The position numbers and the translations under genes were made by a program. 63,049 bases of DNA, from contig JALZUQ010000020.1 of assembly GCA_023301465.1 (NCBI GenBank), forward strand, positions 1 through 63,049, given 5' to 3'. This DNA comes from Oligoflexales bacterium. GTDB taxonomy: Bacteria > Bdellovibrionota_B > Oligoflexia > Oligoflexales > JALZUQ01. Of this stretch, positions 4,057 through 46,177 are shown piece after piece; the first letter of the stretch is position 1, and each line of letters opens with the position of its first letter. A model generated the notes under the pieces. That model was not told where the DNA came from and made no database searches. It saw nothing but the letters and a program-made list of their open reading frames with translations.

Positions 4057-4085
4057 AGCGATGTTCATTCAATAAGGAGATAAGC

Positions 4086-4385: not shown

Positions 4386-4395
4386 GTTCAATCAA

Positions 4396-5214: not shown

Positions 5215-5723
5215 GTGTGAAAGACTTTCAACGGAAGTATTTTGATTGTATTCGATATGGGTCTAAAGAATTTCGAGTTTTGCCTCTTGAAGAAGCTGAG
5301 TCTAGGTTAAGTATTTATAGTCATCAATTTTTATTTAATCATTATGAAATATTACAAAAAATATTTCCAGTGACTCAAAAATTTCTTGGCTCAGAGAATT
5401 TTAGGTTTTTTTGTAAAGAGTATATTGAAGCTTTTCCTAACCAGAGTATTGACCTTCATTTATATGGTCAAGGATTTGGTGGCTTTTTAGATGCTAGAGA
5501 TGAAGTCGAATATGATTTTTTAAGAGATTTGATGGATTTAGAATGGAACTTCCATGCTGCTTATTACTTAGGTTCGGATTTTAAAAAAATTATCACCTCA
5601 GAATTTCCTTTATATGATTTGTATTTTCATATTAAAGAAGAAAGTCCTTTAGAGAGCCCTGAGGCACAGTCGGTTATGATTTGTCTTAAAGAATTAAAAC
5701 CGGTGATTGAACTTTCTTCATAA
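5211..5723 (+). CDS. bufC: Short DUF2063-family partner protein, BufC
   Basis: 170 residues. The N-terminal helical domain matches DUF2063: a SRLSIYSHQFLFNHYEIL-type segment, then KIFPVTQKFLG, FFCKEYIEAFPNQS and LYGQGFGGFLD. DUF2063 proteins accompany MNIO enzymes and are thought to present the precursor peptide. Most are around 250 residues with a second C-terminal domain. Here the protein stops soon after the PLYDLYFHIKEES region, so most of that second domain is missing. No frameshifted continuation is visible before the convergent neighbour at 5744, so the short form may be genuine. Start by 4-bp overlap with bufB. Confidence 0.82.
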   Translation: MSVKDFQRKYFDCIRYGSKEFRVLPLEEAESRLSIYSHQFLFNHYEILQKIFPVTQKFLGSENFRFFCKEYIEAFPNQSIDLHLYGQGFGGFLDARDEVEYDFLRDLMDLEWNFHAAYYLGSDFKKIITSEFPLYDLYFHIKEESPLESPEAQSVMICLKELKPVIELSS

Positions 5724-5743
5724 TGATTTCTTAAATATTTTGG

Positions 5744-6847
5744 TTATAGCGGTATATTGTTTTTTAAGCATTGATTGTAGTAATTCTCAAGTTTGTTTTT
5801 AAATTCTATTTTAGATCGATTTTTTGCAGAAAGACATGCACTCAAAAAATCACCATAGAAAAAATGGTAGGGATTGAAATGGTCAAATTTCTGAAATGAC
5901 TCCGACATTAGCATAGGAATTTGATGGCCGATACTCAGTGCAAAAGCACCACTGAACTTATCTTGTAAGTAGTCTTGATATTCTTTTTTATAGGGGTGGA
6001 TGAGAGGTAGAATTATATCTGCACTTGAGATTAAGGCGTGAAACTCTAAATCATCGAAATCACCAGTTTTATCAGCCAATATTAAAATGTCACTATATTG
6101 ATTATCTGTTATCCATTTTTTTAATTTTTTTCCATCACCGTATTTATGTAGTGAAGATCCTAGGCACCTGAAGACAATCTTCTCTTTACGAAATACTTTG
6201 TGGTGCTTAGAAATCTGTTCCATTAAAAATTGGTAGTCTCTCCTTTTAAATTCAACTTGACCTGGAATAATAAACTCAGAATATTCATTTTCTATATGAT
6301 TTTGTTTAAACTCTTCAGGGAAATAAACGGGTTGAAAGACTTCGAATTTATCTTTTCTTTGTTTGGTGAGTATTTGTGGGCTTAAGAGGATTTTTTTATG
6401 TAGTTTTTTTTCGATGAGCCACTGAGACATGCTTTTGTTTGATTTAATTGGGTTGTGTATATATCCACAACATTTGGATTTTCTTAGACCAGAAAAGTAT
6501 AAAAATTTAAGTACTTTTTTTCCACTAGCAGAATTTAAGAAGATGTTTTTGATCTGGTGAGTGTTGCAGTATTTTGCTGCCTCTAACCACTGTTTGTTTT
6601 CTGTTAGAACGTGAACCTTATGTCCTTGATACATTTTAAGTTTTTGCATTCTTTTGGCTGTATTTTTGGTTACTAGAAAGTGAAGTTCACACCTGTCATT
6701 TTTTAAGTGATTTACTGTAGTGTGAATGCATTCAAAATGTGAATTTTCAAACTCTAAAATAGCCCATTTTTTTTTCATTGCTTCGCTTTCTGTGGAATAC
6801 AATTTCTCATAATTGGGTAGTGTAGTTTTAATGTGGCTTTGATTCAA
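5744..6847 (-). CDS. Glycosyltransferase-like protein (probable GT-B fold)
   Basis: 367 residues if the TTG at 6847 is the start; an ATG at 6778 (MKKKWAILEFEN) would give 344 residues and starts directly on the first predicted beta strand. Neither has a strong ribosome site. The arrangement resembles a GT-B glycosyltransferase: an N-terminal Rossmann-like half, then FIIPGQVEFKRRDYQFL, a VFRCLGSS strand, and a C-terminal segment (SADIILPLIHP, DKFSGAFALSIGHQIPML) where the donor nucleotide usually binds. No signal peptide is present, so it is cytosolic. Sugar and acceptor cannot be inferred and there is no neighbouring glycan operon. The assignment rests on overall pattern and is tentative. Confidence 0.5.
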   Translation of the reverse strand: MNQSHIKTTLPNYEKLYSTESEAMKKKWAILEFENSHFECIHTTVNHLKNDRCELHFLVTKNTAKRMQKLKMYQGHKVHVLTENKQWLEAAKYCNTHQIKNIFLNSASGKKVLKFLYFSGLRKSKCCGYIHNPIKSNKSMSQWLIEKKLHKKILLSPQILTKQRKDKFEVFQPVYFPEEFKQNHIENEYSEFIIPGQVEFKRRDYQFLMEQISKHHKVFRKEKIVFRCLGSSLHKYGDGKKLKKWITDNQYSDILILADKTGDFDDLEFHALISSADIILPLIHPYKKEYQDYLQDKFSGAFALSIGHQIPMLMSESFQKFDHFNPYHFFYGDFLSACLSAKNRSKIEFKNKLENYYNQCLKNNIPL

Positions 6848-7012
6848 GTTTGAGCTGTTGTGTACTCTTTTTTTCTTAGTAAGTATTCGTTATCAAAGAT
6901 CTAGGTCTGTAACATACTAAAACAACAAACTAATATCGTCTGGGTAAGCTTTTATGGATGGGCTCCGAATATTGTTATTGAGGCAGAATTGTCTCTCTTT
7001 AGAGGAGAAATT

Positions 7013-8134
7013 ATGAAAACAGTAGTTCAAAGCTTGGCGATTGCCTTGTTTGTATTCATTCACGTTGCATGTGGTAGTTCTGACTTTATCAGTGATGGTA
7101 AAACAACGCAAACTGCGTCTGAACTAGATTCGACACCTGGTACTCAAAACTCAAAGACAGCACTAAATCTTGATTGGAGTTGGAACTGTTCTGACTCATC
7201 TCTTAAGTCGAATGCATCTAGTTTAGCGGTTGAGCGAAATGGGCTAGTAGATTTACCTAACTTAAGTAAAACCAGTAAAGTAAGTCTAGCAGTTGATTTA
7301 GAGCTGTGTGAGCAGACACAGAACCCAAGTAAAATTGTATTTTACGTAGATGTTTCTGGTTCTATGGCAAGTTCGTCTTCTGTAGGTTTTGGAAGTGATC
7401 CAATAGTTAATGGAACTTGTGGCAGATTAGATGCAATTCGTGGGATTATGAATAAAAATAACCGTTCAACAGAATATGCGATAGTAACATTTAGCTCATC
7501 AGTTGATGCAAAAAGCTCTGGTTTTTTTAGAAATGAAGATGAACTTACAAACGACTTCTCAGTAGAGGAATTATCTGAAGTAGTTTGTGACGGTACGTTT
7601 TCTACAAACTTTGAATCTTTAAGTGATGTACAAGATCTTTTTGATGATTTTGCAGAAGCGAACGATTTCAAACATGTATTTATGATCTCTGATGGACAGC
7701 CTAATAGCCCAGAAGAAAACGGTATGGTAGCAGCTGAAGCATTGAAATCTAATGATGTCGTGATTGCTACAACTTATATTGGTAATGATAAGTCTGCTGA
7801 GCAAGTTCTCATGGATATTGCGAGCTTAGACAGTGACGGTAAGCCACTACATAGCTCGGTGGGAGAATCAGGTGAATTAGTTGACGCGATTGAAACCTTG
7901 ATAGTACGTGAAATTACAGGTGCTTATATGGATGTAGATGGTCTTTCCCCGAACTCTTCGGACCCTTACTCTATTAAGTTAGACGTGAATTATACCGATT
8001 TAACAGTTAAGCAGCCAATCATTGAAGATTTACTTGGACTAGGCCTGCTGAATCAAGATTTAACAGCAACTTTAAGGGTCGTGTATTCAAATGGAGATGA
8101 AGAAACAAAATCAGGTAGGATCCAATGGAATTAA
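7013..8134 (+). CDS. von Willebrand factor A domain lipoprotein
   Basis: About 373 residues from the ATG at 7013, which has AGAGGAG in front of it; the frame is open a little further upstream. The signal peptide ends in a lipobox (HVACG), so the protein should be lipid-anchored. A vWA domain begins near residue 105 with the metal-ion-dependent adhesion motif DVSGSM. It continues through strands AIVTFSSSVD and HVFMISDGQPNSP, the latter with the conserved Asp. A beta-rich tail follows. vWA domains mediate metal-dependent protein contacts. The 3' end overlaps the next gene by 44 bp, so the two are probably co-translated. The partner is unknown. Confidence 0.82.
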   Translation: MKTVVQSLAIALFVFIHVACGSSDFISDGKTTQTASELDSTPGTQNSKTALNLDWSWNCSDSSLKSNASSLAVERNGLVDLPNLSKTSKVSLAVDLELCEQTQNPSKIVFYVDVSGSMASSSSVGFGSDPIVNGTCGRLDAIRGIMNKNNRSTEYAIVTFSSSVDAKSSGFFRNEDELTNDFSVEELSEVVCDGTFSTNFESLSDVQDLFDDFAEANDFKHVFMISDGQPNSPEENGMVAAEALKSNDVVIATTYIGNDKSAEQVLMDIASLDSDGKPLHSSVGESGELVDAIETLIVREITGAYMDVDGLSPNSSDPYSIKLDVNYTDLTVKQPIIEDLLGLGLLNQDLTATLRVVYSNGDEETKSGRIQWN

Positions 8135-9095
8135 GTTTTTACTTTTTTTAATCCTTGTTTCTTCATATCAACTTCAAGCAGCGTCATGTACGTCATCAAT
8201 ATCTGGATTAATTGTTATTGAAAACCCGACATGTTATTCTGTGAACCCTAATCGTTTTTTTTCAAGTTTAGATAAAGTAGATTTTTCATGGATTAAGGAT
8301 TTAGATCCAGTTCAAAAAAAGAAGTTTTATAGGTCTTATGATGGTGTTGTTATCAAAGGCAAAGTAGTTTCTTCTCAAGCGGTTCAAAAAGGTTTAGAAA
8401 CTAAAAAAGGCGTTCTCAAAAATCAAAATGTTCGTATATTCTACCCTAGAAAAAAATGTCCTAAAATTAAAACTTCAAACGTAGCACTTCAGTTAAGAGA
8501 GGTTTGTTGTCAAGGTGGTGGTGAAAGCCCTTGTTTGTTAGGTAGTGGTTTGTATGCAACAAAAGTATTTGATGCAGCAAATGTAAAAATAAAAAGCACA
8601 AAAAATATCAATCGTAGAAAAAGATCAAACTCCCCGAGTGTTTTAAAGGCAAAAAAATACTACAAACAAAGAAAATGGGATTTAGCTGCAAAATCATATA
8701 TGCGTGCTTATAAGCAGAGTGAAGCGTCTGTTGTTGATATTTATAATATGGGGCTTTCTTTTCGCAGGGCTGAAAAGTGCTCAAAGGTGTTTAAACCACT
8801 CAGTGAACTATATGACAAAATGATTGATGATAAGCTCTGGGTTGGTGAAGAAAAAGTTGCTCGTAAAGCTAGTTTTTTACTAGCTCGTTGTTACGCTAAA
8901 GAATTAAAATCTGCTGAATCAGTTCAGATTTTAAGCGGCTACTTATTAGAAAGTAAAAAGTATCGTTCTGAGATCCTTCGTAGTTTAAAACATTCAGACT
9001 TTAGGCCTATAAAACTATCTAATGAATTCCAAGAATATAAAAAAGCTGCGGAGTCTAGTCTAAGAAAGAACCCAGCTTACGTACCTGTGCATTAA
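8091..9095 (+). CDS. Secreted TPR-like protein
   Basis: 334 residues from the ATG at 8091; a second ATG lies at 8097. A hydrophobic stretch KFLLFLILVSSYQLQAAS looks like a signal peptide, but it sits about 14 residues in, giving an unusually long hydrophilic lead. An ATT directly before that stretch has AGGTAGGA upstream and could be a rare start. A Cys-containing beta-type N-terminal domain has paired cysteines (KKCPKIK, REVCCQGGG). From about residue 180 there are helical repeats of TPR type (AKKYYKQRKWDLAAKSYMRA, then NMGLSFRRAEKC and ARCYAKELKSAE). It is coupled to the vWA lipoprotein by a 44-bp overlap, so the two may form an envelope complex. Confidence 0.65.
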   Translation: MEMKKQNQVGSNGIKFLLFLILVSSYQLQAASCTSSISGLIVIENPTCYSVNPNRFFSSLDKVDFSWIKDLDPVQKKKFYRSYDGVVIKGKVVSSQAVQKGLETKKGVLKNQNVRIFYPRKKCPKIKTSNVALQLREVCCQGGGESPCLLGSGLYATKVFDAANVKIKSTKNINRRKRSNSPSVLKAKKYYKQRKWDLAAKSYMRAYKQSEASVVDIYNMGLSFRRAEKCSKVFKPLSELYDKMIDDKLWVGEEKVARKASFLLARCYAKELKSAESVQILSGYLLESKKYRSEILRSLKHSDFRPIKLSNEFQEYKKAAESSLRKNPAYVPVH

Positions 9096-9826
9096 AATAC
9101 AGGGGTTTGGCCTGACTTATTAGAGTCTAGCTCTTCAATTTTATTTTCGTAGTATTCTTTTGTCTCTTCTAGAACTTCTTCTAGTGTTTTTCCTTTTGTT
9201 TCGATTTTTTTGCCAATATGCATTGTTACAGTTTTTCCCGGGTGAACATAGAAAATACCGTCAGGGTTGTAGCGAGGCATACCAATCAGCGTAATAGGGA
9301 TGATGGGTGCATCCATTTGAGTTGCAAAATAAAAGGTACCTTTTTTGAATGGTTTGAGGGGGCCGACAGGTTTTCTGGTGCCTTCAGGGGCAATAATTAA
9401 GTTGCCACCATTTTTAAGTCGCACTTTTAAGTCTTCTAGTGCTTTTACGGATTGAGAACGATTTCCACGATCAATTCCTATGTTTCCCCACTTTTTTGAG
9501 ATAAATCCATACATTGGAATTTTATGATTGCTAGCTTTCTCGACTCCAAACATGAGTGACTTTAGGTAACCAACAACAACAAAATGATCTAAAAAACTAT
9601 TATGATTAAAAGTGATCACGGATCCAGAAAATGGAATGTTTTTCTCCCCCGTAACTTTTATGCGAACGCCAAAACATATGATGCATAGTTTACAAAATAA
9701 TCTAAGTAATGACTCTAGTTTTACAGAAGGAAAGATAATAAGAGATATTGCGATAAGGCTTCCACCACTTGCAAACAGAAGAATATATAATACCCATCTG
9801 ATCCATGTGTTTAATTTTAATATCAT
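9092..9826 (-). CDS. plsC: 1-acyl-sn-glycerol-3-phosphate acyltransferase (PlsC family)
   Basis: 244 residues. A hydrophobic N-terminal segment (about 10-35) should anchor the protein to the inner membrane. The acyltransferase motif NHNSFLD holds the catalytic pair His75 and Asp80, and the substrate-binding motif EGTR is at 148-151, with IPITLIGMPRY further on. The family transfers an acyl chain to lysophosphatidic acid to make phosphatidic acid. Its start overlaps the upstream hydrolase gene by 4 bp (ATGA), so the two form an operon. Its end overlaps the convergent TPR gene by 4 bp. Substrate specificity within the LPLAT superfamily is not certain. Confidence 0.9.
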   Translation of the reverse strand: MILKLNTWIRWVLYILLFASGGSLIAISLIIFPSVKLESLLRLFCKLCIICFGVRIKVTGEKNIPFSGSVITFNHNSFLDHFVVVGYLKSLMFGVEKASNHKIPMYGFISKKWGNIGIDRGNRSQSVKALEDLKVRLKNGGNLIIAPEGTRKPVGPLKPFKKGTFYFATQMDAPIIPITLIGMPRYNPDGIFYVHPGKTVTMHIGKKIETKGKTLEEVLEETKEYYENKIEELDSNKSGQTPVF

Positions 9827-10563
9827 TTTTCAATCCAATCAGTGATGACACTTGATAACCACTCAGGTTCATCCAGTGGAATTTCATGGCCAGAGGTTTC
9901 GTGTATTCGAAATGTCGCTCCACAATGTTGTGCAATGCTTTCAGAGCATTCCCAGTGGCATAAACGATCTCCACGCGAGGCTACCACTAACATAGGGATA
10001 GGGCATGGTACGTTAAAACCTTTGAAGGTTTTTGCCGCAATGAGTTGTTTTGCAATATTTTGAAACTTCATGGGGGTTTGCTTTGTTGCATCCATCCAAC
10101 CGCCCAAAAGGGTTTCTTGCTCGCTAGAGTCTTTGTTGGAAACTAAACGGAGAATTCCTTTTTCGGTTTTGAGGGTAGAGGTGGAAGTGGCAATTTTACT
10201 AAACTCTAAAGCCGCTTTTGGGCGTAGCCTTTTTAAGCTATGAGACAACTTTCCGTAGCTAGTGTTTACGGTAATAAGTCCTTTAAGTTCTTCTGGGTAA
10301 TGATATGCCCAATGGGTTGCAATCATACCTCCAAGTGAAACACCAAGAACGAGTCGCTCTTTTTTTGTTTTTGGGAGCGAGTTTCTAATATGGTCTACAT
10401 AATCTTTGATTTGAGTAGATGCAGGTTCTAAATAATGTTCACCCGTTCCAATATTGTCTGGAGCGATAACTTTTTTGATAGCTTTCACAGATTTTAAATA
10501 CTTAGGGAAGTCTCCCCAGTGTTTAGACCATCTTGCTAGACCTCTGATAATGACGATTTCCAC
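9823..10563 (-). CDS. Alpha/beta hydrolase
   Basis: About 246 residues if translation starts at the GTG at 10563, which follows AAGGA at a suitable distance and begins on the first beta strand (VEIVIIRGLARWSKHWGDF). The frame is open to a TTG at 10650, giving 275 residues. The nucleophile elbow is GVSLGG, the acid lies in the ASRGDRL strand, and the His is in SGHEIPLDEP, so a full Ser-Asp-His triad is present. There is no signal peptide, so it is cytosolic. Coupling with plsC by a 4-bp overlap suggests a lipid or acyl-ester substrate, but that is inference from context. Confidence 0.8.
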   Translation of the reverse strand: MEIVIIRGLARWSKHWGDFPKYLKSVKAIKKVIAPDNIGTGEHYLEPASTQIKDYVDHIRNSLPKTKKERLVLGVSLGGMIATHWAYHYPEELKGLITVNTSYGKLSHSLKRLRPKAALEFSKIATSTSTLKTEKGILRLVSNKDSSEQETLLGGWMDATKQTPMKFQNIAKQLIAAKTFKGFNVPCPIPMLVVASRGDRLCHWECSESIAQHCGATFRIHETSGHEIPLDEPEWLSSVITDWIEK

Positions 10564-10751
10564 TTCAGTGTATTCCTTTTCAGGTGGCTGGTCTTCACTC
10601 CTTGCTATAGCAAGAAGTTTAAAATACTCAGTAAATATCTGGTAACACAAGACTTATCACTTTGACCCTCTACCTGCCAACCACCAATGATTTGATCTAA
10701 AAGATAGAAATTTTATTTGCATAATATTCAATCATCTAATAGACTCTGACG

Positions 10752-12302
<1,551 letters not shown>

Positions 12303-12311
12303 GGTTTTTTT

Positions 12312-13847
12312 ATGCAGTCTTTTCTGATTATCGACTATGGTTCACAATACACAGAGCTGATTACACGAAGACTTCGTGAATTAGGGGTCTATGCTGAGGT
12401 TATCTCTCATCAAGCTTCAAAACCAGATAGTGATACAAAAGTTGTTGGGGTGATTCTTTCTGGAGGCCCTGATTCTGTAGGTGAGAATAACTCACGTACC
12501 TTGCCGTCTTGGGTTTTGGGGTTGAATGTACCAGTATTAGGAATATGTTATGGTATGCAGCTTTTAAACCAAGCTTTTAACGGCAAAGTACATACAGGGA
12601 CAACAAGAGAGTACGGTAAAGCTCAGGTAAATTTTAAAACAGAAAGTATTTTATTCAAGGGATGCCAATCAAGCTCTACTGTTTGGATGTCTCATGGAGA
12701 TTCATGTTTGATTGATCAAGCTGAGTTTAAAGAAATTGCAAGAAGTCAAAGCGATGTGTTGTCTGCAATCTCACATGATTCAAAGCCACTCTATGGTTTG
12801 CAGTTTCATCCTGAAGTTTATCATTCTCAAGAGGGGACAAAGGTACTCAAGAATTTTGTTTTTGAAATTTGTCATGCAAATAAAGAATGGAATAGTCAGA
12901 GTATCTACGAAGAGTGTTGCGAAAAAATCCAATCGACTATGCCCGGAGACTCAAAGGTATTGATGGCTGTTTCAGGTGGTGTGGACTCAAGTATTGCTTA
13001 TGCGTTGATGGTGAAAACCTTAGGTTCAGAAAGAGTGGTAGGGGTAATGGTAGATCACGGTCTACTCAGGCATGACGAAGCAACTAAAGTGAAGAAAAGC
13101 TTTGAAGTTGCAGGAATTAAGCCCCCTCATTTAATAGATGCCCGCGATGACTTTCTTAGTGCTTTAAAAGGGGTTTCTGACCCTGAGCAAAAACGAAAAA
13201 TTATTGGAAAGAAGTTTATTGATGCTTTTGAGGCCTTTTCAGAAAAACAATCGGGTATCACCCATCTTGGTCAAGGAACACTATATTCAGATGTGATTGA
13301 GTCAGCGGGTGGGGGAAGTGGTTCTCATAAAATCAAAAGCCATCATAATGTAGGTGGTTTACCTGAGCATATGAAACTAAAACTATTAGAGCCCTTTCGT
13401 CATCTATTCAAAGATGAGGTCCGAAAAGTTGGTTATGAGATAGGGTTGAGTAAAGAGCTTATTGAAAGGCACCCATTTCCGGGGCCGGGTCTTGCAGTCC
13501 GTATTTTAGGTGAGATAACAGCTGAGAGAGTGACAGTACTCCAAAAGGTGGATAATCTATTTATAAAAGCGTTGTGGGAGAGCAACTTATACCATACACC
13601 TTGGCAAGCTTTTGCAGTCTTGCTACCGGTTAAATCTGTGGGTGTCATGGGTGATCAGAGAACTTACGCACACTGTGCTGCTCTTAGAGCAGTTGGATCA
13701 ACAGATGGAATGACTGCAGAGGTTTCAGAGCTTCCTATGCAATTTTTAACAGATACGGCTCGAAAAATAGTATCTGAAGTAAAAGAAGTAAACCGAGTGG
13801 TGTATGATATTACTTCAAAACCACCCGGCACTATAGAGTGGGAATAA
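12312..13847 (+). CDS. guaA: GMP synthase (glutamine-hydrolysing)
   Basis: 511 residues, full length. The class I amidotransferase domain has Cys79 in LGICYGMQ and the His166/Glu168 pair in LQFHPEV. The ATP-pyrophosphatase domain begins with the P-loop SGGVDSS at 221. The dimerisation domain has FPGPGLAVRILGE and ends PPGTIEWE as expected. It converts XMP to GMP using glutamine and ATP, directly after GuaB. The ATG lies 9 bp after the guaB stop, with only a weak ribosome site, so translation may depend on coupling. The end is nearly flush with the convergent lipoprotein gene. Confidence 0.98.
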   Translation: MQSFLIIDYGSQYTELITRRLRELGVYAEVISHQASKPDSDTKVVGVILSGGPDSVGENNSRTLPSWVLGLNVPVLGICYGMQLLNQAFNGKVHTGTTREYGKAQVNFKTESILFKGCQSSSTVWMSHGDSCLIDQAEFKEIARSQSDVLSAISHDSKPLYGLQFHPEVYHSQEGTKVLKNFVFEICHANKEWNSQSIYEECCEKIQSTMPGDSKVLMAVSGGVDSSIAYALMVKTLGSERVVGVMVDHGLLRHDEATKVKKSFEVAGIKPPHLIDARDDFLSALKGVSDPEQKRKIIGKKFIDAFEAFSEKQSGITHLGQGTLYSDVIESAGGGSGSHKIKSHHNVGGLPEHMKLKLLEPFRHLFKDEVRKVGYEIGLSKELIERHPFPGPGLAVRILGEITAERVTVLQKVDNLFIKALWESNLYHTPWQAFAVLLPVKSVGVMGDQRTYAHCAALRAVGSTDGMTAEVSELPMQFLTDTARKIVSEVKEVNRVVYDITSKPPGTIEWE

Positions 13848-13856
13848 GAATACATT

Positions 13857-14714
13857 TCACTGGATAGTTTGTTGTTCGCTTTTTATAATTCTAGCAGAAA
13901 GTGCGTTATTCGAATTTTCTTTGTGTAAGTATAGCTTAATAAGTTCTTGGTTTTTTACTTTTAGAACAAAGCATTCATCAGCTTTAAATTTTATCTTTAT
14001 GCATCCTTTCCAAATAGGGTGTTTAAGATCGTTAAATCCTGCACTGATGCTTGTTGAGTACACGAGTTCAATGTCGTGAATCCAATTTAACCCGGAAGGG
14101 CTTACTTCTGCAAAAGATGCATTATAGTTGCCGTTGTTTAGTGCTTTGATGCCGATGCCTATGGGTTTTGAACTTGTCTCTAGTGTTCGTGGTGATTGTG
14201 CAAGGTAATCATACCGATTGTATACATCCTTTGTTATGGCGAGTATGTTTTGTTGATTTTCTTCTTTTGTCCAAATAATTTCATTAGGAGTTTGATCAGT
14301 TTGGTTTAAAATATTTTCAGAAATTTCAATATTGGTTTGGTTTTTAGAAATATAGAAACAATGAAATTTTAAGTTTTCGAGTATGCCGGTCTGATGGCAA
14401 GCTCTTTGTGTTTGCTCGTTACTTGTGGTGTCTTTAAAATTTAGTATTTCAGTCTGCCAAATAATCTTATCAATCTCCGCTGTTCCTCGTTTAGCTTCGT
14501 AGTGATCGTTACGAATCCAAACACCTAGTAGTTGTTCGTTTTGAGATTGAAAAACAAAGTCAAATTGGTTGTTTTGAAAATCAGTCGCTCTATTAAATGT
14601 AGATAAAAGGTCCGTCTCTTTTTGTTCGGCTTGAGAGTCGCGTAAAAAGCTGTTCGATGTTTTACAAGATACAAAAAATAAAGCTATCGTAGAAACAATA
14701 AAAAAAACTTTCAT
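13857..14714 (-). CDS. Lipoprotein of unknown function
   Basis: About 285 residues. The gene begins with two ATGs; the second, at 14714, is better spaced from AAAGG. The signal peptide ends in the lipobox FVSCK. The mature protein is polar with probable beta structure, for example GVWIRNDHYEAKRGTAEI and INKIIW-type strands in alternating polar pattern. I do not recognise a family. It stands alone between convergent guaA and the same-strand YqgE gene 60 bp upstream. Late cysteine residues (KGCIKIKF, DECFVLK) could form a disulfide in the periplasm. Confidence 0.65.
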   Translation of the reverse strand: MKVFFIVSTIALFFVSCKTSNSFLRDSQAEQKETDLLSTFNRATDFQNNQFDFVFQSQNEQLLGVWIRNDHYEAKRGTAEIDKIIWQTEILNFKDTTSNEQTQRACHQTGILENLKFHCFYISKNQTNIEISENILNQTDQTPNEIIWTKEENQQNILAITKDVYNRYDYLAQSPRTLETSSKPIGIGIKALNNGNYNASFAEVSPSGLNWIHDIELVYSTSISAGFNDLKHPIWKGCIKIKFKADECFVLKVKNQELIKLYLHKENSNNALSARIIKSEQQTIQ

Positions 14715-14774
14715 CATGAGCCTTTCAGATAATAGTTACCTATTATTCTAAACTATTTTAGTTGTTTTTGTATA

Positions 14775-15341
14775 TTAATGAATGTGCGAAACCGTTTGAG
14801 CGAACATTTTTGCTGGGGCAAGACCAATAGCACCAATCGCTTGTGGCCAGATGTTTCCTGTAGAAGTGTTGAATACTAGCTCTTTGTCGTATGGAATGAC
14901 CATCCATTTTCCTTCTCGGATTTCTTTATCTAGTTGTTTTGATTCCCAAGCAGTATAACCCGATATAAACCTATAAGGGTGTCGTGGAGCTTCAGTAGGT
15001 TCTGGTTTGTAAAGTAGTTCAATGGTTTCAGGTGCTGTTGAGATATAGCAATCTGGTGCCACACTATCATCTTCTTCAGAAACTCTTTCATGAGATAAAA
15101 TTAGACCACGATCAGCTTCGGCAGGCCCGCCAAACCATGTGGGTATGTCTTCTGGAATGTCATCATGGCTATTTTTTATAACTTCATCGAGGTTTTCGTG
15201 GCACCTGCGGTTTATTAAAAAACCAATAGAGCCTTCTTCATCATGTTCGATGATGAGAAAGACACCTTGAGAGAAAAAATCTTCGCTCATTTCAGGTGAC
15301 GCAATGAGTAACCATGGGGGGGTAGCTAGTAAGCCCATCAT
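14775..15341 (-). CDS. yqgE: YqgE/AlgH family protein (DUF179)
   Basis: 188 residues. The characteristic start LLIASPEMSEDFFSQGVFLI is followed by EEGSIGFLINR, a central FGGPAEADRGLILSH and a C-terminal KELVFNTS region, all in DUF179 order. The family is widespread in Gram-negative bacteria, often beside yqgF, but its biochemical role is not established; a link to alginate regulation was proposed for AlgH. Here no yqgF is adjacent. It is divergent from the DUF2183 lipoprotein gene, and about 190 bp separate the two starts. Confidence 0.92.
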   Translation of the reverse strand: MMGLLATPPWLLIASPEMSEDFFSQGVFLIIEHDEEGSIGFLINRRCHENLDEVIKNSHDDIPEDIPTWFGGPAEADRGLILSHERVSEEDDSVAPDCYISTAPETIELLYKPEPTEAPRHPYRFISGYTAWESKQLDKEIREGKWMVIPYDKELVFNTSTGNIWPQAIGAIGLAPAKMFAQTVSHIH

Positions 15342-15533
15342 TCACTTTCTTCATGTAATAAATGTTATAAAATACTTAACAAAATCAATGAGCTCACGCA
15401 AGTGAATGATTTTAATATACTTTTTGTCGGAGTGAATCTTGTTCTAGTGGGGTTTGAGGGCTTCTTTGCTGTTTAAATGACAATTAATAATACAGCAATG
15501 TTATGATGAATAAAGACATGAGAAGGCTTTTCA

Positions 15534-16367
15534 ATGACTCTAAAAAACCAAACCATCAATTGGCTGCTTATTTTAACAGCTGTTTTGTGGGTAACAAGTT
15601 GTGTCACTGCACCAGTTTTTTCGAGCTTCTTTTCATCTTCAAAAGGTTGGACCATCATTAGTGACTTTGACGATACTTTAAAGCAAACAAATTGTACTAG
15701 TAAACGCTCTACCATTAAAAATGCACTGTTCACCCAAAAAACGTTTACAGGCATGCGTACTCTTTTAGAGGCAATCCATTTAATGGATAGGTCTAAAAAC
15801 CTTACGACTCAATTCTATGTGCTTAGTGCTTCTCCGAAGGTGTTGAAAAATAAAGTGAAAGACTTACTTCAAAAGTTTAGGTTCCCAAAACCAAAACAGA
15901 TTTTGTTGCGTGAGAGCCTTATATCTTTTGATATATATGCTTTTAAGAAAAAATCTCTCAATAATATCATTCGTTCTTCAGGCAAGAATATACTTTTACT
16001 TGGAGATAACTGCGACACAGATGCCAAGGTTTATGCTGAGCTTAAACGTGAAAACCCTCATTTAAATATACATGTGTTTATTAGATCCATTAAACCTACT
16101 CAACCACTTCCAATGACTACAAACTTTGTTACTCCTTTAGAAATTGTGATTGGATTAAAAGATAGAAAAGCTATTGATGATAATCACGCTATAAAGCTTG
16201 TAGAATTGTTGAAGGGTGAAATTTTGTTATCAAAAAACTTGATTCCAGACTACGCATATTGCCCGTTAGATTATGAGCTATTTCCTGGGCAGCCAAAACA
16301 GGGCAGTATAAAAAAGGCTTATTTACAAGTGGAAAATAAAATAGAAAGTTTTTGTAGTTCAAGGTAG
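15534..16367 (+). CDS. DUF2183/App1-like phosphatase-domain lipoprotein
   Basis: 277 residues. The signal peptide ends with VTSC, a lipobox, so the protein is probably lipid-anchored. Immediately after comes WTIISDFDDTLKQTNCT with the HAD-type motif Asp44-x-Asp46-x-Thr48, as in the App1 / DUF2183 phosphatidate phosphatase domain. Later motifs fit the fold: YVLSASPKVLKNK (Ser/Lys motif) and LLGDNCDTDAKVYAEL (the acidic motif). Known relatives dephosphorylate phosphatidic acid. An envelope location suggests a lipid or phosphoester substrate outside the cytoplasm. No operon partner is evident. Function is inferred from the family. Confidence 0.78.
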   Translation: MTLKNQTINWLLILTAVLWVTSCVTAPVFSSFFSSSKGWTIISDFDDTLKQTNCTSKRSTIKNALFTQKTFTGMRTLLEAIHLMDRSKNLTTQFYVLSASPKVLKNKVKDLLQKFRFPKPKQILLRESLISFDIYAFKKKSLNNIIRSSGKNILLLGDNCDTDAKVYAELKRENPHLNIHVFIRSIKPTQPLPMTTNFVTPLEIVIGLKDRKAIDDNHAIKLVELLKGEILLSKNLIPDYAYCPLDYELFPGQPKQGSIKKAYLQVENKIESFCSSR

Positions 16368-16413
16368 TTTGTAAAAAAATGTATGGTGAAAAACAAATTA
16401 AACATTTCTTTTT

Positions 16414-16881
16414 TTAGTATAAATTACATCCTCTACCGGGATTCTTGTCAAAATACTTTTGGTGATACTCCTCTGCAGCAAAGTAGTTAGTGAGAGGGCT
16501 AATTTTCGTTACAATTGGTTTCGAATACTTGGTTTGGGATGTTTCTTGATTTTGGTTTGCAGTCAATATTTGCTCATCACTTGTGGTAAAAATTTCAGAG
16601 CGGTACTGCGTTCCAATATCAGGTCCCTGTTTATTAAGTTGAGTAGGATCATGAAGTTCCCAAAATAAATTTAATAATTTTTCGTAAGAAACAATTTTAG
16701 GATCAAACTCGAGCAAGACGACTTCGGCATGGCCTGTTTGGCCGGTGCAAACTTGTTCGTAGGTGGGGTTTTCTGTGTGACCACCAGCATAGCCAACCTG
16801 AGTCTTTTGAATGCCTTCGATTTTTTGATAGGCAGCTTCAACGCCCCAAAAGCACCCTGCTGCAAATACTGCTATTTCCAT
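16414..16881 (-). CDS. msrA: Peptide-methionine (S)-S-oxide reductase MsrA
   Basis: 155 residues. The N-terminal AAGCFWGVE motif contains the catalytic Cys10; a second cysteine near the end (GRGCNLY, Cys152) is placed to resolve the disulfide. Between them are the expected THTENPTYEQV-type region (GGHTENPTYEQVC) and GPDIGTQYRS. The enzyme reduces S-epimers of oxidised methionine and is recharged by thioredoxin. No signal peptide, so cytosolic. It is divergent from exbB with about 120 bp between starts. No msrB is fused or adjacent. Confidence 0.96.
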   Translation of the reverse strand: MEIAVFAAGCFWGVEAAYQKIEGIQKTQVGYAGGHTENPTYEQVCTGQTGHAEVVLLEFDPKIVSYEKLLNLFWELHDPTQLNKQGPDIGTQYRSEIFTTSDEQILTANQNQETSQTKYSKPIVTKISPLTNYFAAEEYHQKYFDKNPGRGCNLY

Positions 16882-16952
16882 CGCCTGTCTCCCAAGACTT
16901 TCATCAATTGCTTAATATAATCATAGTAGACTATACCTGCCAAGTTGAAAAT

Positions 16953-16961
16953 TGCTATAAT
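16953..16961 (+). promoter_or_regulatory. Extended -10 promoter before exbB
   Basis: TGCTATAAT at 16953-16961 is a consensus extended -10 element (TG-n-TATAAT). It lies about 40 bp upstream of the exbB ATG. No good -35 hexamer is found 17 bp upstream, which is normal for extended -10 promoters. Confidence 0.5.
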
Positions 16962-17003
16962 AGATAGAGCACATCATTAACGCATAGAAGATGGAGTACG
17001 GTC

Positions 17004-17648
17004 ATGGAAGGTCAAGCGGTTGAGTCTGGGTTTAATATCGTTGAAAAGCTATTAGGTATTACACTTCTCGGTAGTGAATGGGTTCTTTGGTTACTAATGT
17101 TTCTAAGTGTTGTCTCCATTGCTGTGATTATTGAACGATTTTTCTTCTTTAAAAAATATAAGTTAGGCATTACAGATTTCAGTGAAAAACTGACAGGTTT
17201 TTTGCAACAAAAAGACTACGATGAAATTAACACTCTTTGTAAGGCGGATATTAGTCCTGAAGCTGCAGTGGTTTTAAAGGGGATGGAGAGTAAAGAGCGT
17301 GGATCAAAGGCTATGGAAGAAGCAATGGATGGTTACCTTATCGGTGAACGTCATAAAGTAGATAAAGGTTTGCTCTTTTTAGGAACTCTCGGAAATAATG
17401 CACCATTTATTGGTTTATTTGGAACCGTCATTGGTATCATTCAGGCTTTCAATGATTTGAGCATGAATGCAGGTGGAGGTCCGCAAGTTGTTATGGGTGG
17501 TATTTCTGAAGCATTGGTTGCAACGGCTGTCGGTCTTTTTGTGGCAATACCAGCTGTCATTGCATTTAACGCATTTAACCGAACTGTGAAGAAACACTTC
17601 TCAAGAGCTGAGTCCATTAAAAAGCTAGTTGTCAGCCATTTTTCTTAA
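17004..17648 (+). CDS. MotA/TolQ/ExbB proton channel family protein
   Basis: 214 residues. Three membrane segments are visible: about 25-45 (EWVLWLLMFLSVVSIAVII), about 115-140 (LGTLGNNAPFIGLFGTVIGI) and about 160-185 (ALVATAVGLFVAIPAVIAFN). The second carries the family signature GxxGTVxG. With an ExbD/TolR partner these proteins form a proton-driven motor in the inner membrane that energises TonB-dependent transport or Tol-Pal. ExbB and TolQ cannot be separated from sequence alone. The next gene is the ExbD-type partner, but no tonB or tolA follows. RBS ATGGAG precedes the start. Confidence 0.92.
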   Translation: MEGQAVESGFNIVEKLLGITLLGSEWVLWLLMFLSVVSIAVIIERFFFFKKYKLGITDFSEKLTGFLQQKDYDEINTLCKADISPEAAVVLKGMESKERGSKAMEEAMDGYLIGERHKVDKGLLFLGTLGNNAPFIGLFGTVIGIIQAFNDLSMNAGGGPQVVMGGISEALVATAVGLFVAIPAVIAFNAFNRTVKKHFSRAESIKKLVVSHFS

Positions 17649-40321: not shown

Positions 40322-43300
40322 ATGTGCGGTTTGTCAAAAGTATCAAGTTGTTGGAGTCGTAGTAGTTTCATAGCTTTAATGCTTATTATTCTTATTCCAA
40401 ATTTTTGCTTCGCTGATGACACTGATGACGCTGTTGAAGGTGCTGATAGTCAAATACTTGAAGGACAATACAGTGAACATGAAAGCATATTCCTTGATCG
40501 TAAAGAAATGCTTAGGTCGGTTATCAACAAAAACTACTCTTCATTACCGCCTGCAATGGAAGCATTTATTATTGGTTTATTTTCTATTGTAAATATAGAT
40601 ATTGATCCTCGAGGGTTTGAATACCACCAAACAACTTTACGTGATGGTGGTAATACTAGAACTAAAGAAAACCGACAGTATTTAGAATTTACAAAACTCA
40701 TAGAAATGATTCTTGATGTTTATGAGACACCTCGTAAAGTTCCTGATGATGCTAATGAAGTATTGTTTCCGGATATTGAGTCTTATATTTTAAAGACTCA
40801 CCCTCTGAAGGGGCAAACAGGTAAAGTAGAAGAAGACTTTGAGAGAATGCTGGAAGCCTACAAAAAAAATGTTCTTAAACGTGCTTATAGTGAGCGTTTG
40901 GCTACAGAAGAGTATCGTAGCAGCTTTGCAAAAGATGTTTTTACAGAGGCTCGATTAGTTCAAGATCAACGTGATATCCACTTTGAAAAAACGCTGGCAC
41001 AAGTCGTTGATGACGATGGAACTGCTGGTGCAAATATTGCTGGAACTTTTTTAAGGGGTATTTTTAACGGACTCATTCAAACTGCAACATCGTCTTTGCA
41101 GGGTGCAGCTGAAATTTTAGATTATACAGGCAGAGCTACAGAGCACTTAGATAAACTCGTTTATTCTAATATTGAAAGTGCAGAAAAAGCTGTCTCTGAG
41201 TTAACTGCGTTACAACATGCTGAAGCTCATTTACGTTCTGCTAAAGCTACATTTTCAAATTCCAATGAGTGGGACTTAATGGGTATTAGTCACTCTGAGT
41301 GGCGTAATAAGTCTAAATCCCAAAAAAGAACTCAAAAGAAACAGCTCATTAAAAGACAAAGAATGAAACTCGAAGAAATTCAAACAGAAATTGATTTGTT
41401 AAAAGAAAGTGAACAAGTTGGGAGGCTTTCTGATGCGATTAAAGAAAACGCATTATCAAAGATTTCTAGGAGTTCAAAAGAAGCAGCAAAAACACTTCGA
41501 GGGATTGACTCTTTTTTAAAATCAGAATCAGGTTTTATAGACCTCCTAAGGGAAATACACATACATTCTGCTAATACGAGAATGATCAAAAAATTGATTA
41601 AATCATTCGAAGCAGAAATTAATGGTCTTTTACAGCAACAACTGGTGTCGATTCCACAAAGAGCAATGCACTCAGAGTTGATGAGAAGTATTGATATCCA
41701 ACAAGATGATCAAGGTAAAAAAATTGTCAATAGAGTGCTGACTTTATTGTTTCGTGATTATCTTCCTAGGCTTCCGCCAGCAATATTAAAAGATATGATT
41801 ATTGATTTAATTAGTACTACATCTGAAGACTATACAGATGATGTTGCTCATGCTGATTTTGTTGCTATTACAAAAATTGCAAAACATTTTGATCCATTCT
41901 TTTACTCCATCATGCAAAACATTGCTGAGCAAGTGGATAGTCCTTATGTAAAAGGTCTTTGTAGAGTTCTGCAAGATCAAGGCTTAGTAGATCTTCCGGC
42001 ACTAGTATTGCAAACCATGTATGGTGAACCGATCAAGGATTTTGTGCTGCTGAGTAAAGAAGACTTTGGTGAGTTACTGCGTCTTAAGGAACAACATCCA
42101 TTTTATGAAAAGTTTAAAGAGGCAAAAACAGCATATGTTGATCTTTCACTTGATGCTATGTCGGCTGGTAAGTACTTTCAGGTTCATTCAGCAATCGAAG
42201 TAAATACTTCAACGCTTGAACAACAAAAAATTGTGTTGAGAATTCAAAAAACAGGAATGCCTGAGCTACTAAGGCACGGGTATCAAGTTGCAAATAGTTT
42301 GATCCCGGATTTAAAGACTATTTTTGAGTTGGCTCCGGGCAAAAACCTTGTTCACAATAACAGGTTAGAGCAATTTATTGATGTCCAATTTGCTAAGCTA
42401 GCAGAAGAATTAGATCTTCAGCGTACGGCAGTGAATTTTCAAAGAGGAAAACTACGTTTACAACGTGAAATATCACTCAGCCTGAAAAATCAGAAATATC
42501 AAATCAACCTTAAGATTCCTGAAGTTTCTGTCCCAGCAGAAGGCTCTAAAATGATTTCAATTGAATACGTCGATGATGTAGGTATTGATCACTTCAGGGA
42601 CAAGCATGAGCATGCTTCAAGGGTTCTAGGGCGAGAGATTTATCGTGCGGTTTATGAAGAGCTTTTTTTGTTGCCTTTGGTTGGGCACCCAATGCAAAAA
42701 ATGTATGAAGTTGTTTTGTCTCACTTCAAGTTAAAGCTTGAGGTTGTAAAATCTCAAGAATATGTTGTAACAGCTGACGGGACAAAGCTGAGTCAATCGG
42801 ATTTAGAAGCTCTTCGTTTTGATGACCCGGACTTTCTTGCGGGTGTGAATACGACAACAACAGAGGACTATTTACGACTACTGAGACAGCTTGAGTCTGA
42901 AAATATATATGATTTGCACCTAAAGATGAAAACCTTTCACCCGAAAGACGGGTTTACAAACTTTGACCCTCATGCAGGAAACTTCAGAATATCTAAGGTG
43001 AGTTTGCTTGGAGACCGCGAGGCTAGTCTGATTGAAGTCGTGATGACAGATTTTGGGATTATTCATGAAGTTCAAGGAAAGTACCTGAAGCTTCTTTCAA
43101 AGCTTACGATTGGGTCTGAGTACATGTCTCCAAAAGTAATTGCTAATGCGATTACATTGCTTGCAAATTTAGATGTTCATTCAAATGAGGATGAAGTTGA
43201 ATATAAAAATGTTCTTCAAATCGTAAAAAAGACCATTCGTATAGAACAAAGAAAAACCAAAAGCAAAGTGGCGTTAGGCCCAGGTGAATGGATTTATAGA

Positions 43301-43528
43301 ATGTTTTTCTATCACGATATCGGGTTTCCAAACTGGCTTATAGCACTATATCAACCAACAAATGGAGTTGCGGATAGTTTCAAAAGATTTGGTGGTTTAG
43401 AGGAAGACTTTATTACTATAGAAAAAGACTGGAGACTGGCTCATGGCATGAAATTATTTCATGGGTCTTTAGGCAGTATGGAGAAACTTAGAATCGCTGG
43501 GTCTCACTGTTTTTCTTCTTTTAAATAG
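40322..43528 (+). CDS. Exported UbiB/ABC1-like atypical kinase-domain protein
   Basis: 1068 residues. A Sec-type signal peptide is clear: basic n-region, hydrophobic core IALMLIILIPNF, then CFADDTDD. Residues about 35-600 are largely helical without a known motif. From about 600 a UbiB/ABC1/ADCK-type kinase core appears. KYFQVHSA corresponds to the family 'GQVH.A' loop, KIVLRIQKTG to the beta-3 strand, and EELDLQRTAVNF to the 'ElD...Ea.N' helix. FDPHAGNF at 881-888 corresponds to the catalytic DPHPGN, and TDFGI (Asp910) is the metal-binding DFG. The usual beta-3 lysine aligns with Arg640, so ATP binding may be altered. Ordinary UbiB proteins act in quinone biology in the cytosol or mitochondria; an exported one is unusual. 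It is 8 bp from the GTPase gene. Confidence 0.72.
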   Translation: MCGLSKVSSCWSRSSFIALMLIILIPNFCFADDTDDAVEGADSQILEGQYSEHESIFLDRKEMLRSVINKNYSSLPPAMEAFIIGLFSIVNIDIDPRGFEYHQTTLRDGGNTRTKENRQYLEFTKLIEMILDVYETPRKVPDDANEVLFPDIESYILKTHPLKGQTGKVEEDFERMLEAYKKNVLKRAYSERLATEEYRSSFAKDVFTEARLVQDQRDIHFEKTLAQVVDDDGTAGANIAGTFLRGIFNGLIQTATSSLQGAAEILDYTGRATEHLDKLVYSNIESAEKAVSELTALQHAEAHLRSAKATFSNSNEWDLMGISHSEWRNKSKSQKRTQKKQLIKRQRMKLEEIQTEIDLLKESEQVGRLSDAIKENALSKISRSSKEAAKTLRGIDSFLKSESGFIDLLREIHIHSANTRMIKKLIKSFEAEINGLLQQQLVSIPQRAMHSELMRSIDIQQDDQGKKIVNRVLTLLFRDYLPRLPPAILKDMIIDLISTTSEDYTDDVAHADFVAITKIAKHFDPFFYSIMQNIAEQVDSPYVKGLCRVLQDQGLVDLPALVLQTMYGEPIKDFVLLSKEDFGELLRLKEQHPFYEKFKEAKTAYVDLSLDAMSAGKYFQVHSAIEVNTSTLEQQKIVLRIQKTGMPELLRHGYQVANSLIPDLKTIFELAPGKNLVHNNRLEQFIDVQFAKLAEELDLQRTAVNFQRGKLRLQREISLSLKNQKYQINLKIPEVSVPAEGSKMISIEYVDDVGIDHFRDKHEHASRVLGREIYRAVYEELFLLPLVGHPMQKMYEVVLSHFKLKLEVVKSQEYVVTADGTKLSQSDLEALRFDDPDFLAGVNTTTTEDYLRLLRQLESENIYDLHLKMKTFHPKDGFTNFDPHAGNFRISKVSLLGDREASLIEVVMTDFGIIHEVQGKYLKLLSKLTIGSEYMSPKVIANAITLLANLDVHSNEDEVEYKNVLQIVKKTIRIEQRKTKSKVALGPGEWIYRMFFYHDIGFPNWLIALYQPTNGVADSFKRFGGLEEDFITIEKDWRLAHGMKLFHGSLGSMEKLRIAGSHCFSSFK

Positions 43529-43536
43529 GGTTTATA

Positions 43537-45522
43537 ATGATACGCATATTTTCCATCTTATTATTTATAATGCCGTTTTCAGTCCTTGCTGATGATTATG
43601 CAAACATAAAAGAGAAAGTACGCGAAACAGTTGAATTAGTTGATGAGCTGAAAAAACGTTTTGAGAAGCTTGGTATCAATTTGGATTTAACTGACTATGA
43701 TAGAGGGATCCAAAAGATAAAAGGCCATCTTGAGATGATGGATCGCCCTAGTATTGTTGCTGTTTTAGGGATGAGTAGTACGGGTAAATCAATGTTTGTA
43801 AATCAATATTTAGGCGAGGACTTTTTAAAGTCTGGTGCCGAAAGTGGTTTAACAAAAGCACCGTTGGCGATATTTCCTAGTTCTTTTTATTATAATCGCA
43901 AAAATGACGTCAAAAATATACTGACGGGTTTAAATCCGGTCTATGTAAGTAAAGCAGAAAAAGCGACTTATGTTCAAGAAACAGAAAATGATGTTCCAAA
44001 TGCTTACTGGACTACTAGAAAGACTATTTCGGATGAATTTATCTTAGTGGATTTACCGGATGTTGATTCTATTTTTATGGACAATGAGCTACATGCAGAT
44101 GCTGTCGCAAAGATTGCGGATGGTGTCGTTGTCTTAGTAGACGATCATTATAATAATCGTGAGCTCATTAAACACTTAAGAGTTGTGGCAACGCTTGGTA
44201 AGTCAGCAATCTTGGTTTTTAATAAGTCAGATATTGAGAGTGATGGACCAGACGTACGAAATTTTTGGGCGACAGCTATTAAAGGCATAAAGGAAGCTGT
44301 AGATATAAATATCTTAGCTTCATATGCGATTGAACGTAATTTTAAGGCAGCGTTAAGTGGTGAGTCTTTAAAGGTTTATGATGTTGGTTTAGACGGAACC
44401 AATCAGCCTAAAGAAGTTAGCTATCAAGAAATATTTGATCGTTTGTCGTTTCAGGAAATGAATTTTCGCTCTGAGGTAGGAGCTCTTCGTGAAGCTATTT
44501 CAGGAAGTAGTGGGCTTAAAGCCAATCTAAATGAAATTGAAGATATGCAATCAAAGGTTCAAACACTTTTAAGTGCTGTCGGTGGTGAGCAGTCGGTTAA
44601 GTCTGAAGATGATCAGCTTATCATCGAGTGGCCAGAATTACCGTCAGGTTTACTGATGGATGAGGTTTTGAATCATTGGCACAAAAAATATCGTGGATTG
44701 GTGACTAAAATTATAAAGTCTCCATCTATTTGGGCGTGGCGTTTACGTTTTTTTAGAAGGTTGAGTGAGTTAGTTGTACGTAAAGAGATAAACATAAAAG
44801 AAGGGTACTTACAAAACGAGAGTGATATATTAACCACAAAGGTTATTCAAACTCTTCTCTGCGAAATAGAGCGGCTTAAAACATCCGGTGTTCTAAAAGG
44901 CAAGTTACTCACTGCAGCAGAAGAGCTTCTTAATCCTGTAAATACCAGTCAAATGACATCAGATTTTGCAAAAGCTTACCATGATGATAAATCTGTTATG
45001 TCAGCCCTCCAAGAGTCTATTGCAGGTGAGTTTATAAAATTAAAAGAAGAAAACCCGAGGTGGTTTGATTTGATGGCAAACCTCGATTCTGCTTTAGCGG
45101 TAGCTGAGCTTGGGGCTCCTATTGCAATAGGTTTTGGGGCAGGTAATCTTCTTGCAGGTCCTATGATGGGGCATTTGGCGACTTCATTATTTGCTCCTGC
45201 AGTGCAAGGTGTTGTAACCGTCGTTGGTGGTGGGGCCTTGGCTCCATACTCATCGGTTTATGCAAATACTACTCGCAAAACATTTGTTGCCACTTTTATG
45301 CAAGAAGTTGTTACAGAGTACGCAAAAGCAAGAATGGTTTGGGCGTTACAATGGATGAGAAACAACCATTTAAAAGCATTTTATGACTTGCTAGAAGAGT
45401 CTGTAAAAGAGAGCGAAGACCCAATTTATAATACATTAAATATCAATCTTGTTGAGATAAAAAAATTTATAGAGTCTATTCCAATTTCTAACGACGGCTG
45501 TAATGCTGCTTTTCAAAAGTAA
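43537..45522 (+). CDS. Exported dynamin-like GTPase
   Basis: 661 residues. It begins with a signal peptide (IRIFSILLFIMPFSVLA, then DDYAN). The G domain has a P-loop GMSSTGKS at 78-85, a switch-II type DLPD at 172-175 and the base-specificity motif NKSD at 229-232, so GTP binding looks intact. A long helical region follows. Near 520-580 there is a hydrophobic Gly/Ala-rich segment (GAPIAIGFGAGNLLAGPM, then VQGVVTVVGGGALAPY) that could insert in a membrane, as in bacterial dynamins. The G domain resembles the dynamin/50S-binding GTPase superfamily. It follows the UbiB-like gene by 8 bp, and both predicted mature proteins start with Asp-Asp. A GTPase outside the cytoplasm is puzzling. Confidence 0.75.
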   Translation: MIRIFSILLFIMPFSVLADDYANIKEKVRETVELVDELKKRFEKLGINLDLTDYDRGIQKIKGHLEMMDRPSIVAVLGMSSTGKSMFVNQYLGEDFLKSGAESGLTKAPLAIFPSSFYYNRKNDVKNILTGLNPVYVSKAEKATYVQETENDVPNAYWTTRKTISDEFILVDLPDVDSIFMDNELHADAVAKIADGVVVLVDDHYNNRELIKHLRVVATLGKSAILVFNKSDIESDGPDVRNFWATAIKGIKEAVDINILASYAIERNFKAALSGESLKVYDVGLDGTNQPKEVSYQEIFDRLSFQEMNFRSEVGALREAISGSSGLKANLNEIEDMQSKVQTLLSAVGGEQSVKSEDDQLIIEWPELPSGLLMDEVLNHWHKKYRGLVTKIIKSPSIWAWRLRFFRRLSELVVRKEINIKEGYLQNESDILTTKVIQTLLCEIERLKTSGVLKGKLLTAAEELLNPVNTSQMTSDFAKAYHDDKSVMSALQESIAGEFIKLKEENPRWFDLMANLDSALAVAELGAPIAIGFGAGNLLAGPMMGHLATSLFAPAVQGVVTVVGGGALAPYSSVYANTTRKTFVATFMQEVVTEYAKARMVWALQWMRNNHLKAFYDLLEESVKESEDPIYNTLNINLVEIKKFIESIPISNDGCNAAFQK

Positions 45523-45682
45523 ATGGATACTTTGGTGTGAAAATTTAATTTTAAAAGAATAGTAAAAAAACAACCTATAATAATGTCATTGCTTACTCTA
45601 ACAGCCGTCATCCTCACGCTCACTTCGTTCCTTGGATTCAGTCGTACAACACTCCGTTCTGGTTTGCGAATTCCAGAAAGAA

Positions 45683-46068
45683 GCTTTATACTGTAATCTT
45701 TATCATGCCAAGTGGGATCGTGTTTATCATGTAGTATTTGTGCCTCATTGTAGAAAAAGAGTTTTATACGGTTAAATCTGTCAATTCTTCGGTCCAAAAT
45801 TTCGTGATTTTGCAGCTCAATGTTCCAGTAGTATTGAAGAGGGCCACATGGTTCAAGATCATGTGCATATGATGATCAAGTCTCCTCCTAAGTGTTCAGT
45901 GTCCGAAGTGATTGGTAGCATAAAGGTAATAGTGCTATAGCAGTAACTAGGCATTTCTCTGGTAGGAAACGGAATTTCAATGGTGAGAAGTTCTGGACTC
46001 GTGATTATGCAAGTTTTACGGTTGGGTTTGAAAAAGAAAAAATCAAATCGTATGTGATTAAGCAATAA
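45683..46068 (+). pseudogene. Broken IS200/IS605 TnpA transposase
   Basis: The frame reads ALYCNLYHAKWDRVYHVVF and VPHCRKRVLYG, then an in-frame TAA. It continues CQFFGPKFRDFAAQ, EEGHMVQDHVHMMIKSPPK and CSVSEVIGSIK. After a one-base frameshift near 45927 it resumes KGNSAIAVTRHF, EKFWTRDYASFTVGFEKEK and IKSYVIKQ, ending at a stop at 46066-46068. The HUH metal pair is HVH, and the catalytic Tyr is in KSYVIKQ. This is the complete IS200/IS605 Y1 transposase order, disabled by one stop and one frameshift. It lies between the GTPase and the MtnK-like gene. Confidence 0.85.
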
Positions 46069-46129
46069 CGACTTGACGGACTTGTTAATAAGGAAAACGG
46101 TAGATTTTAACACAGATTAACAACTGGCA

Positions 46130-46177
46130 CCCCTAGGGGGCGCTAAGGAATTCGCAAGCCTCCTGCTATGCGGGCGG
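46130..46177. other. Palindrome and hairpin at the right end of the IS200 remnant
   Basis: CCCCTAGGGG at 46130-46139 is a perfect 10-bp palindrome. CCTCCTGC and GCGGGCGG at 46159-46177 form a G+C-rich hairpin with one mismatch, followed by GTTATGACTTGA. This resembles IS200/IS605 right ends, which have a subterminal hairpin followed by a TTATGACTT-type tail. The element end thus lies about 10 bp before the ATG of the next gene. Confidence 0.65.

Follow-up and report, generated by a model that had tools for sequence, protein, structure and literature searches.

Proteins of the UbiB family are of ancient origin, and what they do biochemically is still under debate. Two yeast members, Cqd1 and Cqd2, are exposed to the mitochondrial intermembrane space (PMC10214851, PMC8346625). 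In animals, ADCK1 influences the dynamin-like GTPase OPA1 by way of YME1L1 (PMC6553794). Among bacterial dynamins, LeoA is periplasmic, and its authors noted both that a signal sequence was absent and that the periplasm holds no nucleotides (PMC4159319). Here, we describe a pair of adjacent genes that encode a UbiB/ABC1-like protein (gene 1) and a dynamin-like GTPase (gene 2), both with predicted export signals. The pair is located on a 63,049-nucleotide stretch of DNA (the window; positions 1 to 63,049 of the forward strand of contig JALZUQ010000020.1) from an Oligoflexales bacterium (GCA_023301465.1), a single draft genome that is 96% complete and in 66 contigs. An earlier examination of the letters of this stretch (the sequence-only reading) had started from the premise that UbiB kinases and dynamin-like GTPases work where ATP or GTP is available. 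Given the location of Cqd1 and Cqd2 at the intermembrane space and that of LeoA in the periplasm, the premise that such proteins work only in the cytosol needs qualification (PMC10214851, PMC8346625, PMC4159319).

Gene 1 (window 40322-43528, + strand, 1068 aa) and gene 2 (43537-45522, + strand, 661 aa) are both intact and are separated by 8 bp, in agreement with the spacing and lengths given previously. From this gap we infer that the two genes are co-transcribed as one unit; promoter and terminator scans returned signals at chance level. Signal peptides were scored using a home-made heuristic rule based upon n-region charge, h-region hydropathy, and the presence of an AxA site. The predicted Sec signal peptide of gene 1 spans residues 1-31 (40322..40414, + strand), with cleavage between CFA and DDT, and that of gene 2 spans residues 1-18 (43537..43590, + strand), with cleavage between VLA and DDY. 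Among the roughly 43 genes of the window, these signals ranked first (score of 4.74) and third (4.62), respectively. The annotated starts of both genes are accompanied by Shine-Dalgarno-like sequences (AAGAG or AGGG). Within the first 120 codons, none of the later in-frame starts of gene 1 has such a sequence, and the sole later start of gene 2 that does (AAGG) is codon 67, which lies inside the folded part of the protein. The Sec signals reported by the sequence-only reading, and its observation that both mature ends begin Asp-Asp, were thus upheld by strong scores at well-supported starts. Both proteins are very probably exported out of the cytoplasm, as judged from these sequence features.

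Gene 1 matched the Pfam ABC1 family (PF03109) with an E-value of 1.7e-10 and 40.9 bits (cut-off 22.9), and did not reach the cut-off of the UbiB equivalog TIGR01982 in the NCBIfam search. Its kinase-like core (residues 613-914; 42158..43063, + strand) contains a QVH loop (residues 620-622), VLRIQK, EELDLQRT, DPHAGN (882-887), and DFG (910-912), so that the UbiB/ABC1 motifs named earlier are all present. Asp882 and Asn887 of the DxHxGN motif and Asp910 of the DFG motif are kept. In alignments the ATP site is altered, with Arg640 (in VLRIQK) in place of the ATP lysine and Thr702 (in EELDLQRT) in place of its partner glutamate; the description of a kinase core therefore holds for the motifs and requires correction for the loss of two canonical ATP-site residues. 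The KxGQ motif of UbiB aligns to DPFFYSIMQ of gene 1, where the lysine is replaced and the glutamine kept, in a part of the alignment that is weak. Gene 1 may be a pseudoenzyme and, with both of these ATP-site residues replaced, appears as likely to act as a regulatory pseudokinase as to be a catalyst. The AlphaFold model of gene 1 was poor (mean pLDDT of 46, shallow alignment), and its best Foldseek match was COQ8A (1.6e-4), followed by the related MSMEG_1954.

Fifty-six genomes of the phylum were searched with Pfam ABC1 and unusual long frames were read, which yielded ABC1 proteins with export signals in several families. Sec-type signals were found in L067, L068, L070, L073, L075, and L082, and lipoboxes in L071, L076, L077, L151, and L152. 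A profile built from nine exported members (A1) then recovered a 1510-aa lipoprotein, L150, on contig 9 of the genome that holds the pair (L150:9105-13637, - strand); it combines an M48 peptidase domain with a UbiB-like domain bearing FDPDRHPGNYRI (UbiB match of 1.9e-13). This genome accordingly encodes two exported UbiB-like proteins, gene 1 and L150, beside ordinary UbiB and AarF-like proteins. With gene 1 included, the class holds 13 complete exported ABC1/UbiB-like proteins with either a Sec signal or a lipobox, while an export signal was found by the same kind of rule in 0 of 27 canonical UbiB controls of the class. Not counted among the 13 are L072, which is closely related to the Sec-signal set and has its start cut off by a contig end, and L154, which appears split. 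The latter (L154:6430-8356, G003 contig 451) is an exported ABC1 gene seemingly in two frames that adjoins unknown bases, and is either a pseudogene or an assembly error. Long ABC1 open reading frames (ORFs) of approximately 950 aa in L063-L066 were considered as exported members and left out, as a signal was absent by eye. Scanning GTDB with a narrower profile (A4) returned three genomes, Oligoflexales bacterium DT_79, nzgw171, and CH-Oct18-10, all of which were already in the set. Recurrence of exported UbiB/ABC1 proteins in the class, as identified from their predicted signals, is thus a repeated observation, unlike the pairing with a dynamin. A search of an open-access library turned up no paper on UbiB proteins exported by bacteria.

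Several comparisons connect gene 1 to this group. A profile of seven exported members that do not come from the ankyrin loci (described below) matched residues 474-955 of gene 1 with 34 bits, compared to a maximum of 4.0 bits among 200 shuffled versions, and a five-row profile made without gene 1 (A3) found gene 1 in its own genome with an E-value of 6.2e-6. The score of gene 1 was 15.5 bits with a profile of canonical proteins only and 33.8 bits with canonical and exported proteins together. The match to the exported profile takes in a pre-core module, YLPRLPPAILKDMIIDLI...DPFFYSIMQ (residues 480-532; 41759..41917, + strand), which aligns with a module that other exported members carry ahead of their kinase cores and that is recurrent among them. 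Most exported relatives keep all five catalytic residues, and L152 has an arginine at the lysine position, as does gene 1. Since gene 1 was left unplaced by a maximum-likelihood tree built from the cores, its membership in the exported ABC1 group is considered likely, not proven.

The genes found beside other exported ABC1 genes were mostly exported and of cytosol-type or host-interaction-type, and a dynamin was never among them in the loci read. At L067, L068, L070, and L073, the exported ABC1 gene adjoins genes for one or two large proteins that match ankyrin repeats weakly and for the most part bear signals. These gene sets (L067:531-7661, L068:2886-10321, L070:1248-8258, and L073:6423-11881), in which the ABC1 catalytic residues are intact, have the appearance of candidate effector operons. 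The L073 partner contains GVSSFGKS, which resembles a P-loop and was considered as evidence of a second GTPase; this was rejected, the protein being weakly ankyrin-like. At L075:158-3780, an exported ABC1 kinase is followed by a glycosyltransferase-like protein with a signal, an enzyme type that uses cytosolic nucleotide-sugar. The genome of the pair also contains an apparently complete type II secretion gene cluster (L161, contig 38, about 2297-17072), of which the GspG pseudopilin alone was confirmed by profile and the rest was read from gene order and sequence.

Gene 2 matched Pfam Dynamin_N with an E-value of 1.8e-5 and 25.3 bits, slightly below the cut-off of 27 (28.5 bits in the genome search), and MMR_HSR1 above its cut-off (2e-5). 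Its G domain motifs (43768..44232, + strand) comprise G1 (GMSSTGKS, residues 78-85), a G2-like SGLTKAP (103-109), G3 (DLPD, 172-175), and G4 (NKSD, 229-232), and a paddle-like hydrophobic, Gly/Ala-rich segment follows at residues 516-570 (45082..45246, + strand). The GTPase motifs and hydrophobic C-terminal stretches that had been described were all recovered at these positions, with the correction that DLPD is itself non-canonical as a G3. G1, G2, and G4 are intact, and DLPD stands where DxPG is expected, so that gene 2 too may be a pseudoenzyme. BDLP-type proteins carry their paddle where the hydrophobic segment of gene 2 sits. The AlphaFold model of gene 2 was of low confidence (mean pLDDT of 49, shallow alignment); its best fold match was the Campylobacter dynamin pair (5oxf_C, 2.6e-3) over most of its length, and a BDLP-like mitofusin was lower in the list. 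A cytosolic dynamin-like relative (L047:550-, - strand) is also without the G3 glycine, with DTPP for DTPG.

Neither protein had a convincing match among Protein Data Bank chains or an NCBIfam model over its cut-off, and neither gene was matched by the PADLOC anti-phage defence models. Single-sequence searches of 58 genomes of the phylum returned no orthologue of gene 1 or gene 2, nor did searches of plasmids. A peptide-pattern scan of GTDB with gene 1 and a scan of viral contigs with gene 2 were likewise without an orthologue. The search for the same gene pair in related genomes, which had been proposed as a check, therefore found none, and the pair is an orphan, a single observation in one genome. 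With no orthologue found in these searches, and with different partners beside the other exported UbiB-like proteins, the evidence does not support a conserved kinase-GTPase system.

The surroundings of the pair are ordinary. Neighbouring genes encode an alpha-2-macroglobulin, a penicillin-binding protein, ALAD, a CAP-domain protein, and SecDF, and the GC content and third-position GC (GC3) of both genes are the same as those of neighbouring chromosomal genes. Directly downstream, at window positions 45661-46160, is a decayed IS200-type transposase fragment (AKWDRVYHVVFVPHCRKRVLYG), flanked by 14-nt inverted repeats whose arms lie 472 nt apart.

The explanation we tentatively favour, at somewhat short of even chances for the mechanism as a whole, is that the exported pair acts jointly on membranes of another cell or vacuole. 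Both products would be exported through Sec and would then cross the outer membrane, for example via the type II system of the same genome, to act where ATP and GTP exist; there the dynamin-like protein would remodel membrane, and the UbiB-like protein would regulate it or supply a lipid- or nucleotide-dependent input. Action on the membranes of another cell is preferred because these types of protein normally need ATP, GTP, or, for the partner of one relative, sugar nucleotides, and because ankyrin-like proteins are encoded beside other exported ABC1 genes. The lifestyle of related bacteria is a further reason, as a bacterium assigned to Oligoflexales replicates inside algae (PMC12865303) and Oligoflexales abundance tracks algal symbionts (PMC10701089). 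Some points weigh against this explanation: several relatives are lipoproteins, which suggests the envelope rather than release; any argument that depends on nucleotide turnover is weakened by the changes in the ATP site and in G3; and the pair is present in one genome only. The main rival, which we regard as somewhat unlikely, is a periplasmic envelope module, in which both proteins lie between the membranes, like Cqd1 and Mgm1 in mitochondria, and either shape or connect these membranes or transport lipids or quinones, while turning over nucleotides little or not at all. Cqd1, on the intermembrane-space side, forms a membrane contact site and acts together with Ups1 on the processing of Mgm1 (PMC10214851), ADCK1 is upstream of OPA1 in flies (PMC6553794), and LeoA was found in the periplasm (PMC4159319). 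Envelope anchoring is also suggested by the lipoprotein relatives, and the loss of the ATP-site lysine and glutamate in gene 1 and the DLPD of gene 2 would suit proteins that turn over little nucleotide. However, the periplasm is held to contain no nucleotides (PMC4159319), the retention of all catalytic residues in most exported relatives argues for ATP use somewhere, and a sporadic, orphan distribution is unlike that of a housekeeping envelope system.

Two other explanations were considered. It is improbable that the genes have no joint function, being adjacent by accident or recent arrivals on their way out: orthologues of neither were found and a transposase remnant lies directly downstream, but the ORFs are long and intact, their GC and GC3 resemble those of neighbours, the spacing is 8 bp, and each gene has its own intact signal peptide. 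The sequence-only reading had also allowed that the signals are uncleaved N-terminal anchors that leave the catalytic domains cytosolic. A hydrophobic segment by itself is compatible with an anchor; however, the n-regions of both proteins are positive, the h-regions short, and AxA sites present, and six relatives have lipoboxes. An uncleaved segment of such polarity would still put the C-terminal domain outside, and because the n-regions are positively charged and AxA sites follow, the domains are placed outside; cytosolic domains on anchors are thus disfavoured and very improbable. Returning to joint action of an exported pair, a broader and unlikely proposal is that the UbiB-type kinase fold has left the cytoplasm repeatedly in this class, and that here it was joined with an exported dynamin into a two-protein membrane-remodelling tool, used in another cell or in the envelope. 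Such a tool would be the bacterial equivalent of the connection between UbiB proteins and dynamins in the mitochondrial intermembrane space.

The exported UbiB group sits where quinone synthesis of the cytosolic kind is unlikely as a function, and it offers a direct test of whether the fold serves as a kinase, an ATPase, or a scaffold. The clear Sec signal on a dynamin-like protein reopens the question, raised by LeoA, of dynamins outside the cytoplasm. Should it be true that these proteins reach other cells, they would represent a new type of bacterial effector.

Compared with described systems, gene 1 resembles the UbiB/COQ8/ABC1 family in its ABC1 domain, its DxHxGN and DFG motifs, and a predicted fold closest to COQ8A (in a low-confidence model), and differs in its Sec signal, the approximately 600 residues before the kinase core, the arginine for the ATP lysine, the threonine for its glutamate, and the apparent loss of the KxGQ lysine. 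Cqd1 and Cqd2, whose site of action is the side of the inner membrane that faces away from the matrix, are in this respect like an exported gene 1. The other exported ABC1 proteins of the class (the Sec-signal and lipobox sets and L150) share with gene 1 an export signal, an ABC1 core, and mostly the pre-core module; unlike gene 1, most have all catalytic residues, and their partners in the loci read are ankyrin-like or other, never dynamin. Gene 2 resembles BDLP1, Campylobacter Cj-DLP1/2, and LeoA in its N-terminal helix, G1, G2, and G4 motifs, putative helical trunk (in a low-confidence model), and a paddle-like hydrophobic segment at the equivalent place, whereas it has DLPD for DxPG and a UbiB-like partner rather than a second dynamin. 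LeoA, too, was found outside the cytoplasm, in the periplasm, but it is without the textbook Sec signal of gene 2. The ADCK1-YME1L1-OPA1 pathway of animal mitochondria differs in having no operon and no demonstrated direct pair, yet it genetically connects a member of the UbiB family to a dynamin-like GTPase in a compartment equivalent to the periplasm.

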